A stretch of DNA of 64,000 nucleotides from Undibacterium sp. 5I1 (GTDB lineage: Bacteria > Pseudomonadota > Gammaproteobacteria > Burkholderiales > Burkholderiaceae_D): contig NZ_JAVIWI010000001.1 in the NCBI RefSeq assembly GCF_034314085.1, positions 186,001 through 250,000 of the forward strand, read 5' to 3'. Position numbers and translations under genes: made by a program. Shown here in pieces: positions 16,448-50,095 of the stretch. Below the pieces are notes generated by a model. It searched no databases. It had not been told where the DNA came from and saw nothing but the letters and a program-made list of their open reading frames with translations. Within the stretch, counting starts at the first letter, position 1. Every line of letters begins with the position of its first letter.

Positions 16448-16463
16448 GGTACGTTAGCGAACA
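16448..16463. promoter_or_regulatory. Candidate operator site 1 (TGTNCG-N4-CGNACA)
   Basis: GGTACG-TTAG-CGAACA, one mismatch to the palindrome, 64 bp before the start of the gene at 16527 and followed by GACAGG, as at the site before 35739. Confidence 0.55.
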
Positions 16464-16526
16464 GACAGGATTAAGCGATCAGTTCATTCTGATCTCTGTA
16501 AAAACTTTCAGTTAAAAGGCGACGTA

Positions 16527-16925
16527 ATGCAAATCCTTACCTGTGTAGATAAAGCCTACGAAAATATGAACTTCCACGAGCTTGCCAATGCGCCGGTCGA
16601 TGCCTTGCTAGGCGTTAGTGCCAAGGATGCTGAGTTACTAAAAAAGGCATTTAACGTCACTACTATCCGCGAACTTGGACATCTTAAATTCGTTAAATGG
16701 GCGATAGCCATAACGACTTTGGCAGATGAGATAGAAACGAAAGAAGATAAAGCCAGAGAGTGTTTGCTAGACGATGCGCTGGAAATGTCGTTTCCCTCCA
16801 GCGATCCAATTTCCGTTAATTCTGGCATCACCAGGATTGAAGTCGCGCCCGACATGGTGGATGCCAGCACCGACCATCAAAATAGCTTATCGATCGAGCC
16901 GCCAAATAAAACTAGCCATAATTAA
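16527..16925 (+). CDS. Hypothetical protein with C-terminal DDALExSFPSSDP motif
   Basis: 132 residues, soluble. The middle part ([29 protein letters not shown]) resembles a helix-hairpin-helix-like fold seen in small beta-proteobacterial proteins. The C-terminus has [17 protein letters not shown], a motif widespread in short uncharacterised stress-associated proteins. A candidate operator lies 64 bp upstream, linking it to the other operator-preceded genes. Start: the ATG follows AAAGGCGACGT; a second ATG 14 codons in is possible. Function unknown. Confidence 0.7.
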
Positions 16926-16940
16926 TGTTGGTTAGTGATT

Positions 16941-17030
16941 TAAGGGGAGTATTGCTAGATTAGTCTAAATCGTCCAAGTAATCAGTGGACGATTTTGCAT
17001 TGAATATACATACACTATCCTAGTATATGT
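16941..17030. repeat. Dispersed hairpin repeat, degenerate copy B
   Basis: Diverged member. The core TTAGTCTAAATCGTCCAAGTAATCAGTGGAC resembles copy C, and the right end has AATATACATACACTATCCTAGTATAT. The left end GGGGAGTATT is in the opposite sense to that expected, so an internal rearrangement is likely. Confidence 0.5.
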
Positions 17031-17043
17031 AAAACTCTTTAAT

Positions 17044-17139
17044 ACTTACGCAAAACCCCCAACTGCTTTGCAGCGATTAGCCGTAGTGAAGTGCTGTCCT
17101 AGTCGCTACGCTTTGCTGGCACAATTTTGCGTAAGTCCT
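17044..17139. repeat. Inverted-repeat element, family 2, copy 2
   Basis: Bounded by perfect 12-bp inverted ends ACTTACGCAAAA/TTTTGCGTAAGT. The interior carries GCTTTGCAGCGATTAGCCGTAGTGAAGT and GTCGCTACGCTTTGCTGGCACAA, in the same order as copies 1 and 3. It follows dispersed repeat copy B directly. Confidence 0.8.
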
Positions 17140-17196
17140 GTTATTAAAGCCTAGCGAAAAAATCACTTTTACTGCATCAGCTTTTCTCGCTATTTT

Positions 17197-18429
17197 CTAT
17201 TCACTCAGCAATTCAGCCACCGACTGCATCCCGTCGATATGCTCAGACACGACGCGTACCATCACGATAATCGGCACGCCTAGTAACAAGCCCCAGATTC
17301 CCCATAGCCAGCCCCAAAATAGTAAGCCGATGAAGAGCGCCGCCACATTCATTTTGGCGATTCTGCCGGTCATCCAGGTAGTAATGAAAGTACCGACCAA
17401 GACCGTCACCACTAGCGTCGCTCCGGTCACTAACAAGGTTTGCGACAAAGATCCAAACTGCATAAAGGATGTTGCTCCTAGCGCCAATGTGATGATGACC
17501 GGACCAAAATACGGAATGATATGCAAGCAGCCCGCAGCGACTGCCCAAGCACCGGCATTTTCTAATCCTAACCAGCGAAAAACTACCCACAGCAATAAGG
17601 CTAAAAGCAGATTAGTGACTAATAGCATAAACATATAGTTCTGGATTGACTTATTAATGTCATCAAGAATATGCACAGTCACTTTTTTGGATGACAGCGA
17701 TGGTCCGGTGATTTTGACGAGTTTTCGCTTGAAGCTATTGCCGGACAAGAGGAGGAAAAAGATCAGAAAAATCAAGACAGTGATTTGACCAACGACACTA
17801 GCCGCACTCACTGATCCTGCTAACAGCCAGTCCTGTATTTTGAACGGGGGAGTCGCAACGATCACGGTGGTAGGTGTTTGCCGCGAACTTGGGCGCACGC
17901 TACTGGATTGATTTGCGGCCTTCTCAATCTCGTTTGCGATTGCCTGCATTTGTTGCATCGTGCTTGGCTGATTGTCTTGTGTTTTGGTGATCGCTTGCGA
18001 TATTTGCCGCGCTGCGTCGGGCAAACTGACCAGGATAGAATTAAATTCGGTACGCAGAGAATTACCAACTACTCCTGCGCCACACAGAATAGTGATTAGC
18101 ACAAGGCTGGTACCAAAAACACGTGGAATTTTAATGCGTTCCAGCCAGACCACAACCGGATTCAGTGTGTAAGAAATGATGATGCCAAAGACCAGCGGGA
18201 TAAAAAATCGCTGCGCTGTTTGTAATGCAAAAACAAAAGCAACGGTGGCTAATATAGTCAGCGCCAAACCGCGGGCATTGACTGGAATGTGGATGGTAGG
18301 TGGTGCAGAGGATCTATTGATGGACAACAAATCACTATCGCTGATTTGTATGGTCGGCGGGCGATCATCTGGTGCATGGATATTCGGCATACTGTCAGCG
18401 TCGACATCTTTATGTTGAGGGGCACTCAT
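17197..18429 (-). CDS. AI-2E family transporter (PerM/TqsA-like membrane protein)
   Basis: 410 residues. About 50 polar N-terminal residues precede eight predicted membrane helices: a pair at about 50-95, one near 108-125, then the long periplasmic/amphipathic part (about 125-205), and the C-terminal group with FLIFFLLLSG, MLLVTNLLLALLLWVVF and the family hallmark GLLFWGWLWGIWGLLLGVPI. Members have been linked to autoinducer-2 export or Na+/H+ exchange; the substrate cannot be read here. The start at 18429 (MSAPQHKDVD) is tentative because the N-terminus is not conserved. Single gene. Confidence 0.85.
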   Translation of the reverse strand: MSAPQHKDVDADSMPNIHAPDDRPPTIQISDSDLLSINRSSAPPTIHIPVNARGLALTILATVAFVFALQTAQRFFIPLVFGIIISYTLNPVVVWLERIKIPRVFGTSLVLITILCGAGVVGNSLRTEFNSILVSLPDAARQISQAITKTQDNQPSTMQQMQAIANEIEKAANQSSSVRPSSRQTPTTVIVATPPFKIQDWLLAGSVSAASVVGQITVLIFLIFFLLLSGNSFKRKLVKITGPSLSSKKVTVHILDDINKSIQNYMFMLLVTNLLLALLLWVVFRWLGLENAGAWAVAAGCLHIIPYFGPVIITLALGATSFMQFGSLSQTLLVTGATLVVTVLVGTFITTWMTGRIAKMNVAALFIGLLFWGWLWGIWGLLLGVPIIVMVRVVSEHIDGMQSVAELLSE

Positions 18430-18608
18430 TTTTTACCCTATTGACGTTAAACGGCTAACTAGCAGCAATTCTCCATCGACTATCAGCATGGTGAATCATT
18501 CGTACTCTCAATGCAAAGCGGGCAATGCATTTGACTTGATATTGATTTATATGACCATTGATCTGGCTGTATAAATCAGTATTGTCTTAACAGTACCCGC
18601 TTGCATAT

Positions 18609-18643
18609 TAGATGCGAGTTGATTTTTAATCAGCTCGCATCTA
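18609..18643 (-). terminator. Hairpin after the BON lipoprotein gene
   Basis: AGATGCGAG(C/T)TGATT arms around a short A/T loop lie about 30 bp past the stop of the BON gene in its direction of transcription. No U-tract follows, so it may stabilise the transcript rather than act as an intrinsic terminator. Confidence 0.45.
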
Positions 18644-48956: not shown

Positions 48957-48979
48957 GACTTTGTCCTGATGTTTTTGAT

Positions 48980-49110
48980 GCTACTGAACTTAGCTTTTTG
49001 AGTTAGTTGCCTAACCTAGTTGTGTGACTTAGTTACGTTCTTCAGTAGCATTGTTAAGTTGCGTTATTTAGTTAGCTTATTTAGGTATCGTATTTAGGTA
49101 TCTTATCTAA
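48980..49110. repeat. Degenerate TTAG-rich direct repeats
   Basis: Short imperfect repeats such as GAGTTAGTTGCC, GACTTAGTTACG and ATTTAGGTATC(G/T)T (twice in tandem) fill the spacer between the DUF3309 gene and the hairpin at 49118. They recall the 12-bp units at 44305 but with irregular spacing. Confidence 0.4.
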
Positions 49111-49117
49111 GCAAAAT

Positions 49118-49146
49118 CAGAGCGCATTCATTGGTAATACGCTCTG
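49118..49146 (-). terminator. Hairpin after the coiled-coil gene
   Basis: CAGAGCG(C/T)ATT arms around a short loop, 13 bp past the stop of the gene at 49159, followed in that direction by the T-rich ATTTTGCTT. A plausible intrinsic terminator. Confidence 0.55.
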
Positions 49147-49158
49147 AAGCTAAAATTT

Positions 49159-49452
49159 TTATAGCTTGGATTTGAAATCGTGGAAGGTTTTGATAAACGC
49201 ATCACGTACTTTTTCTGTGCCGACTACTAGGTCTTTCCAAGATTCTTCGCCAGCCGCTTTTAGCTCATTCAATTTTTCATTGGCCAAGTGTGATTGCTCG
49301 CGCAGTTTAGTCATTTCTTCGTTGTATTTATCGTGCGCATCTTCTCTGGCCTCCTTTGCTTTTACTTCCAGCTCTTGCATGGTTACATTCAATTCGTCGA
49401 GTTGTTGTTTCATTTTTTCTATGTAAGCGTCTCTGGTGTCTTTATCAAACAT
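49159..49452 (-). CDS. Small coiled-coil protein, 97 aa
   Basis: Highly charged, fully helical protein: DAYIEKMKQQLDELNVTMQELEVKAKEAREDAHDKYNEEMTKLREQSHLANEKLNELKAAGEESW with clear heptads to about residue 70, then KDLVVGTEKVRDAFIKTFHDF. No signal or membrane segment. Similar proteins (often called 'coiled coil domain-containing protein' or sll1863-like stress protein) occur with stress genes. It lies after the glycine-zipper gene on the same strand. AAGGAATC precedes the ATG. Confidence 0.78.
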   Translation of the reverse strand: MFDKDTRDAYIEKMKQQLDELNVTMQELEVKAKEAREDAHDKYNEEMTKLREQSHLANEKLNELKAAGEESWKDLVVGTEKVRDAFIKTFHDFKSKL

Positions 49453-49536
49453 GATGATTCCTTTGAATAAAATAAAAAATTGGAGTTAAATTTTGATCAG
49501 AAATAAAGAATCTGAGTTTTCAGTTCTATAAAAATA

Positions 49537-50025
49537 TTAATAATGATCGACGCGACCATCCATCAAGCGAACACGGTTACCAACGCGGAAATCATAAATA
49601 TTGTCTTGCATGACGCTGGTAGTACTACCGTTATCTAAACGGATCTGGATTTGGTATTTGTCGGATGCTTGGGCATTTTTGTTTTGCTCAACATTGTTAC
49701 CGACCAGCGCACCACCGATTGCACCTGCTACTGTGGCGGCAGTTCTGCCGTTACCATTACCAACCTGATTACCCAAGAGACCGCCAACCAAGCCACCAAC
49801 TATTGCGCCGCCGCCACTGGTATTGTTATTAGGGCGAACGACCTGAATAGACTCGATATAGCCATAGTTACTGGCGTTGTTTTGATAATTTTGGTTATTT
49901 TGATTATTGGGGTAGGGCGTCGAATAACTGCCTTGTTGTGACGTGTTCTGTGGGGCATTATTGGCACAGCCAGCAAGGGCGGCTGTTGCTAACACCACTG
50001 CGCTGATGACAAGTTGAGATTTCAT
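49537..50025 (-). CDS. Glycine-zipper lipoprotein (SlyB/17 kDa antigen-like)
   Basis: 162 residues from ATG 50025; AGGAGAAC lies 3 bp before it. Lipobox ALAGCANN (Cys20), then a Gln/Asn/Tyr-rich linker, YIESIQVVRP, a glycine zipper (GGGAIVGGLVGGLLGNQVGNGNGRTAATVAGAIGGALVGNNVEQ) and a beta domain (YQIQIRLDNGSTTSVMQDNIYDFRVGNRVRLMDGRV). This is the layout of the SlyB family of outer-membrane lipoproteins. Operator site 10 lies 55 bp upstream. Confidence 0.87.
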   Translation of the reverse strand: MKSQLVISAVVLATAALAGCANNAPQNTSQQGSYSTPYPNNQNNQNYQNNASNYGYIESIQVVRPNNNTSGGGAIVGGLVGGLLGNQVGNGNGRTAATVAGAIGGALVGNNVEQNKNAQASDKYQIQIRLDNGSTTSVMQDNIYDFRVGNRVRLMDGRVDHY

Positions 50026-50079
50026 GTTGTTCTCCTGAATAAGTGTGGGATCAGAATAAGACTGATAAGACACATGGTC

Positions 50080-50095
50080 TGTACGCTGCCGCACC
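50080..50095. promoter_or_regulatory. Candidate operator site 10
   Basis: TGTACG-CTGC-CGCACC, one mismatch in the last base, 55 bp before the SlyB-like gene on the minus strand. Confidence 0.52.

Follow-up and report, generated by a model that had tools for sequence, protein, structure and literature searches.

The window examined here, a stretch of 64,000 nucleotides (nt) from Undibacterium sp. 5I1 (C1:186001-250000 of a 4.88-Mb genome whose second contig, C2, measures 171 kb), contains a recurrent 16-mer palindrome, TGTNCG-N4-CGNACA, and, among its copies, a gene for a Crp/Fnr-family regulator (26081..26800, + strand; recognition helix GVRREGITEAAGKLQ; Pfam PF13545) that we propose as its binder. 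A first-pass annotation had read ten copies as a candidate stress-regulon operator. All ten are present, three being exact (20387, 25571 and 25944), six having one mismatch (16448, 21943, 33369, 35578, 40540 and 50080) and one having two (35674). An eleventh site with two mismatches (39993-40008), missed by that annotation, lies before a catalase gene in the same layout.

Each window site was read toward the gene it precedes, on which side a -10-like hexamer is found. The regulator gene follows an exact site (25944..25959, +), a predicted autoregulatory operator with TATAGT (25982-25987) at a spacing of 22. The exact site 25571..25586 (-; TAAAGT, 25544-25549) precedes a CHASE-PAS-GGDEF-EAL gene (22388-25156), with an open reading frame (ORF) at 25166-25387 further upstream; this CHASE-GGDEF-EAL gene (22388-25387) looks split, its upstream segment falling in the different ORF 25166-25387, and its counterpart in the relatives L207 and L218 occupies one ORF and has a hydrophobic segment at its N terminus. 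The third exact site, 20387..20402 (-; CATACT, 20360-20365), lies upstream of a small ORF (~20100-20243; labelled lmo0937-type in the first-pass annotation) and of a CsbD gene (19762-19977). Sites with one mismatch precede a small 132-aa protein (16527-16925; site 16448..16463, +; CATTCT, 16485-16490), homologs of which occur in six of 59 other genomes, all six with the regulator; a BON gene (21517-21828; site 21943..21958, -; CAATCT, 21916-21921); a DUF4398 gene and a DUF4398-OmpA gene (40661-41080 and 41166-42080; site 40540..40555, +; TATGAT, 40577-40582); and a glycine-zipper (SlyB-like) gene (49537-50025; site 50080..50095, -; TATTCT, 50053-50058). The site 33369..33384 (-; one mismatch; TAGTCT, 33342-33347), read toward its -10, serves the AsmA gene (30921-33077) with a leader of ~260 nt, and a similar element exists in the relative G035. 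Two divergent sites, 35578..35593 (-; one mismatch; TATGCT, 35551-35556) and 35674..35689 (+; two mismatches; CAATCT, 35711-35716), precede a membrane protein gene (34526-35377) and the PRC-barrel (35739-36158) and CHRD (36155-36595) genes, respectively; C2 carries a divergent pair of similar layout, its PRC gene having the same site arrangement as the PRC-barrel gene of the window. The added site, 39993..40008 (-; TATGGT, 39966-39971), precedes the catalase gene 37777-39942.

Allowing at most one mismatch, the window holds nine sites, against 1.75, 1.43 and 0.82 expected from Markov models of first, second and third order, and three exact matches, against at most 0.07 expected; with up to two mismatches the window is not enriched (22 sites, 24.35 expected). 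Among 30 permutations of the half-site bases, the palindrome itself included, it ranks first, the runner-up having seven sites with at most one mismatch. The nine sites all fall in 16.4-50.1 kb, in agreement with the confinement to 16-50 kb noted previously, and their flanks and spacers vary from one to the next. The dyad is two-fold symmetric over 16-20 bp and has the CRP half-site register (TGTNC-N6-GNACA). A LexA operator was considered because of the CTGT/ACAG-like edges of the site and was set aside as improbable judging from the gene content.

The sites share a fixed distance to a promoter element. In 10 of the 11 window sites a hexamer nAnnnT stands exactly 21 nt past the palindrome when counted toward the gene, against one of 11 on the opposite side, and the eleventh (25944) has TATAGT at 22 nt. 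With 21 nt between a 16-bp site and the -10, the palindrome is centred at -41.5, the class II activator position of CRP/FNR promoters. We examined this spacing over distinct palindromes with at most one mismatch, tabulating YAnnnT hexamers by offset in both reading directions, so that about half of the readings can match at best. At offset 21 the hexamer occurred in 8 of 18 readings in the window (other offsets, 20-22 always excluded: mean 0.8, maximum 3) and in 15 of 36 in the genome's own islands described below (L013-L017; mean 1.4, maximum 5). Relatives' loci retrieved without use of the composite pattern gave 66 of 187 (mean 6.1, maximum 16), and named crp loci gave 72 of 232 (mean 6.0, maximum 17); these two sets may share some genomes. 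Among the matches listed, 77 matches to the composite of palindrome and -10 were fetched with their regions from nine genomes, and in 67 of these [G/T]A directly follows the 16-mer, although it was absent from the search pattern. The GACAGG that the first-pass annotation saw downstream of two sites belongs to this general flank. Across 67 sites, a T two bases ahead of the 16-mer (67%) and a YA in the spacer are conserved, neither demanded by the pattern, and there is no conserved -35 hexamer between palindrome and -10. A centre near -41.5, a -10 and no -35 make up the architecture of a class II promoter, here relative to transcription starts that are predicted only.

Over the whole genome, exact copies of the bare 16-mer show a mild excess (12 matches, 4 in the control) and copies with one mismatch show none (117, against 139 in the control), for which reason the bare motif was abandoned in favour of an extended composite (16-mer, flank and -10, at most one mismatch), which gives 37 matches against one in the reversed control. 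The genome scan proposed as a check by the earlier annotation thus fails for the bare motif with one mismatch, which lies at background, and succeeds for the composite. The 37 matches represent 34 places, three palindromes being counted in both directions. They distribute as nine in the window interval, ten in C1:893-952 kb, ten in C2:14-46 kb and eight elsewhere; 29 of the 37 hence sit in three islands, one of them on C2, and every island encodes Crp/Fnr proteins. The genome has nine homologs of the window regulator, itself included. Three lie in the second island (C1:891538, C1:892530 and C1:896092), each preceded by a site, and three on C2 (C2:27672, C2:29878 and C2:13945, the last with an internal TAA); in all, five of the nine follow a site, namely the window gene, the three second-island genes and the broken C2 gene. 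Outside the window, sites adjoin genes for a GGDEF-EAL response regulator, OmpA, BON, fatty acid hydroxylase, hemerythrin, PRC, catalase, a pyridoxamine-phosphate-oxidase-like protein, phospholipase A1, a YhdP-type protein and cytochrome c. The composite also precedes the C2 catalase and a catalase in G004, there without the [G/T]A flank. C2:13-46 kb (L016, L017) carries a rearranged counterpart of the window stress set (catalase, PRC, HMA and a membrane protein, the last identified by eye), with three Crp/Fnr genes, one broken by TAA, among several transposase-like ORFs.

The window regulator matches the Crp helix-turn-helix (HTH) family PF13545 with 49.1 bits (cut-off 27), while the cyclic-nucleotide-binding domain PF00027 stays below cut-off (25.3, cut-off 27.5). 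According to its AlphaFold model (predicted local distance difference test, 86.6), for which the top Foldseek matches are FNR, NtcA and CRP (best E 3.4e-12), the protein has the cNMP-type beta-barrel, dimer helix and HTH fold of the Crp/Fnr superfamily. With a protein of Undibacterium sp. GrIS 1.8 it shares 99% identity, and with one from an Undibacterium metagenome-assembled genome 97%. A protein search returned at least 7999 matches, of which, among the 120 listed, the named ones carry the family name only; in the PDB the only sequence match, 3dv8, is weak (E 1.2e-4), and no NCBIfam model reached cut-off in the six paralogs scanned. All 28 regulators of alignment A2, a paralog at 38% identity among them, have Cys142, His146 and Cys219-Glu220-Cys221 without variation, and from the invariant Cys142, His146, Cys219 and Cys221 it is a reasonable guess that this clade senses a thiol, redox or metal signal. 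In the same 28 sequences, the N-terminal 100 residues hold no invariant or near-invariant cysteine such as would form the iron-sulfur cysteine cluster of FNR.

Among 60 genomes, own included, 27 have a homolog of the window regulator, two of them marginal (G013, E 6.9e-4; G044, E 1.8e-14, partial) and scored absent. Within the genus, the 18 genomes with a homolog, own excluded, average 7.1 composites (control 1.5) and the 17 without it 1.1 (control 1.4; one-sided Mann-Whitney p 2.6e-6), and the number of composites climbs with regulator copy number (rho 0.82). Because kinship inflates such with/without tests, we built an rpoB tree of 31 genomes (omitting genus genomes G007, G008, G016, G017 and G019, plus G060-G062), on which regulator presence switched at least five times, giving five independent pairs. 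At a threshold of three composites, on average 4.3 of these pairs pointed the same way as the association, 0.1 the opposite way and 0.6 were tied; at thresholds of four and five, 2.7 pointed the same way. One apparent counter-example, G049, has 31 exact palindromes but lacks a homolog of the regulator. It was rejected: 28 of the 31 sites are one sequence, recurring inside 4 kb at distances that are multiples of 60 bp (G049:C1:473954-477929), so that they look like an unrelated tandem array, which stands as a warning against counting the bare motif.

Of the 19 genomes of the genus that carry the regulator, 14 have CsbD, a typical predicted target (a G021 match below the family cut-off, E 5.3e-4, being scored present), against none of the 17 regulator-free ones. 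In the genus, 17 of 22 CsbD loci, the two own loci included, have their best sense-strand composite no more than ~450 nt upstream, as do two of eight loci of other families; none of 30 reversed controls exceeded 18 bits. For 77 composites of the nine genomes, the downstream proteins were scanned in all but one, which had no ORF, and 25 of 68 families were listed; some ORF picks may be wrong. The first ORFs after these 76 composites comprise, among the families listed and as counts set against no random-gene background, glycine-zipper (7), GGDEF (6), MlaE (5), Crp/Fnr (5), STAS_2 (4), AsmA (3), BrkB (3), CsbD (3), BON (2), OsmC (2) and phospholipase A1 (2), as well as PAS domains; catalase and the pyridoxamine-phosphate-oxidase-like protein are also found downstream of relatives' composites. 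Several of these classes recur in the window.

The site before the regulator gene is retained beyond the genus. The 80 named crp loci are the best-ranking of 445 and came from Undibacterium, Herminiimonas, Massilia, Janthinobacterium and others; in 55 of them a composite above 18 bits lies in the 450 nt upstream, against none of 80 in the reversed control. Of 30 regulator loci from further genomes (two of them own), each fetched as 2-4 kb, 27 hold at least one site above 18 bits; both strands were counted, and some of the sites lie elsewhere than ahead of crp. Sites before crp genes are thus found in Oxalobacteraceae and in some other families. A variant half-site, CGTTCG, is frequent in Janthinobacterium loci, several of them (L112-L151) reading CGTTCG-N4-CGAACG or -CGAACA with 21 nt to a TATAGT before crp, and no recognised site was found in Duganella and most Rugamonas type loci. 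When the crp loci were split by eye at ~14 bits into 58 with and 22 without a site (L125, 14.4 bits, placed without; L111, 10.6 bits and a better palindrome, placed with), a recognition-helix change of E to V occurred in six loci, all among the 22 without a site and none among the 58. A search of 15 site-less loci for an alternative palindrome with a -10 at 21 nt before crp found one, in L120, common to none of the others.

Taken together, the palindrome is very probably the operator of the window Crp/Fnr protein and its close paralogs, in an autoregulated class II stress and envelope regulon. The first-pass annotation had proposed both such an operator and an autoregulated Crp/Fnr gene, a reading that the analysis supports. 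Its pairing of regulator and site, offered there as a supposition, gains support from the regulator's presence predicting composite abundance in the genus, from the sites before crp, from the CRP register and from the class II spacing; the conservation in related promoters that it asked about is seen before both CsbD (17 of 22 same-genus loci) and crp (55 of 80 named loci). The annotation had missed how the -10 is phased, as well as the catalase site, the paralogs and both further islands. What the computation shows is the layout of the composite, how it is conserved and that it goes with the regulator gene; direct binding, activation rather than repression, a stress signal and independence of cyclic AMP are inferred. 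A dimer of the 26081-26800 protein would bind approximately T-n-TGTNCG-N(T/C)AN-CGNACA-(G/T)A, centred at -41.5, and contact RNA polymerase as a class II activator at a TATNCT-like -10 located 21 nt downstream. It would thereby raise its own synthesis together with that of a stress set, its paralogs sharing the sites. The controlled set would be portable and include CsbD, BON, glycine-zipper, PRC-barrel, CHRD, catalase, OsmC and AsmA proteins as well as GGDEF/EAL and PAS regulators.

Several observations weigh against this interpretation. Four of the nine own homologs (C1:2375536, C1:4473312, C2:27672 and C2:29878) have no clear site directly upstream, and 25 of the 80 named crp loci score below 18 bits. 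G021 has an 85%-identity homolog yet a single composite, G001, G005, G010 and G012 have homologs but two to three composites, and G013, scored without a homolog, has four. Outside the genus the association is not significant (six genomes with the regulator, mean 2.2; 18 without, mean 1.2; p 0.16), and five independent pairs are too few for significance on their own (median p 0.125 and 0.25). The E-to-V loci may form one clade, and nine of the 22 site-less crp loci retain the usual GVRREGVTEAAGRL helix. The pairing of regulator and operator is correlative.

Among rival explanations, the palindrome could be a repressor operator overlapping the -35 region, since a protein on a site spanning -49 to -34 would likewise block RNA polymerase. 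We consider this unlikely: the -10 spacing is constant in many promoters and the 67 sites have no conserved -35, as expected where a class II activator takes the place of the -35 hexamer, and activation from this position is what Crp/Fnr proteins usually do. Also quite unlikely is a genuine composite regulon whose binder is another transcription factor inherited with the islands, the Crp/Fnr gene being merely one of its targets. The evidence for the pairing is all co-occurrence and placement, and response regulators too are among the site-adjoining genes, which such a rival would accommodate; against it stand the Crp/Fnr genes in all three own islands, the sites before five of nine own homologs, the CRP-type half-site register with class II spacing, and the retention of the site before crp in several families. 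That an alternative sigma factor reads the motif itself, as part of the promoter, appears very improbable. Spacer and flanks are conserved asymmetrically, and the fifth -10 position is C in 45% of the 67 sites, as in sigma-S promoters, which have C there; however, this C is the only sigma-S signature in the -10 and is not decisive, and the two-fold symmetry over 16-20 bp, the centre at -41.5 instead of -35 and the tie to crp gene presence all speak against it. Finally, an origin of the sites from a mobile or REP-like repeat, or by chance, is scarcely credible, for although the bare one-mismatch 16-mer is not above control genome-wide and transposase-like ORFs are plentiful on C2, flanks and spacers differ among sites, the -10 is phased and composites number 37 against one.

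The operator under the Crp/Fnr protein can be compared with several known systems. E. coli CRP shares with it both the half-site register (TGTnn-N6-nnACA) and the class II position at -41.5. The two differ in the recognition helix, where the residue at the position of CRP R185 is E in the present regulator, and in PF00027, which is below cut-off in the window protein. General stress regulons of the sigma-B and sigma-S type have a similar gene content (CsbD, catalase, OsmC, BON), whereas the present system has a two-fold symmetric site with a plain -10 and is tied to a Crp/Fnr gene. NF010499, a CRP/FNR regulator equivalog that presumably covers SdrP of Thermus thermophilus, is not matched by the window protein, and two paralogs score ~19 bits against a cut-off of 274. 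The E. coli CRP site is given in PMC8465061 as TGTGA-N6-TCACA, from which the window sites depart by C then G at half-site positions 5-6, with position 4 free. The same paper presents SdrP (TTHA1359) as a Crp/Fnr protein and likely class II activator of oxidative-stress genes, active in oxidative stress, with sites beside or overlapping the -35 box; family and proposed class II mode are thus alike, whereas its operator there, AWTGTRA-N6-TYACAWT, differs from TGTNCG-N4-CGNACA (PMC8465061). DdrI of Deinococcus radiodurans, a CRP-family stress regulator whose DNA-binding form is described without cAMP in PMC11253593, is alike in family and stress role; the same text links it to the DNA sequence of classical CRPs, unlike the operator here. 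The present system would work like SdrP and DdrI; it is filed with the Crp/Fnr class II activators, as neither SdrP nor CRP, its operator and sequence family being different. In the open-licence PubMed Central literature, a partial coverage in which a report could be missed, we found no description of either the motif or the regulon.

For a large clade of Crp/Fnr proteins, whose named members, among the matches listed, bear only the family name, the analysis proposes an operator, the layout of its promoters and the genes under it. The composite predicts which promoters should respond and makes CsbD, BON, PRC, glycine-zipper and the 132-aa protein testable as one regulon. The C2 island suggests that a whole stress regulon plus its regulator can ride on a second, probably plasmid, replicon. 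More tentatively, this clade might be the general stress regulator of many Oxalobacteraceae, sensing redox or metal through Cys142, His146, Cys219 and Cys221, with the regulator and operator-bearing genes moving between chromosome and plasmid as self-contained islands, a possibility that we hold as rather doubtful; if true, the recipient of a mobile stress island would acquire a working general stress response in one step.

Two other kinds of intergenic element were observed by eye in the window. A second recurrent palindromic element, unlike the operator, lies at ~540-590, 22165-22260 and 25767-25850, around TATACTCCCC / ATTGTCCA / ATGGACAAT / AATATACT. Two inverted pairs, at ~16336-16421 and 17045-17140, have the form GACTTACGCAAAA...TTTTGCG(C/T)AAGTCC and resemble short non-autonomous mobile elements.

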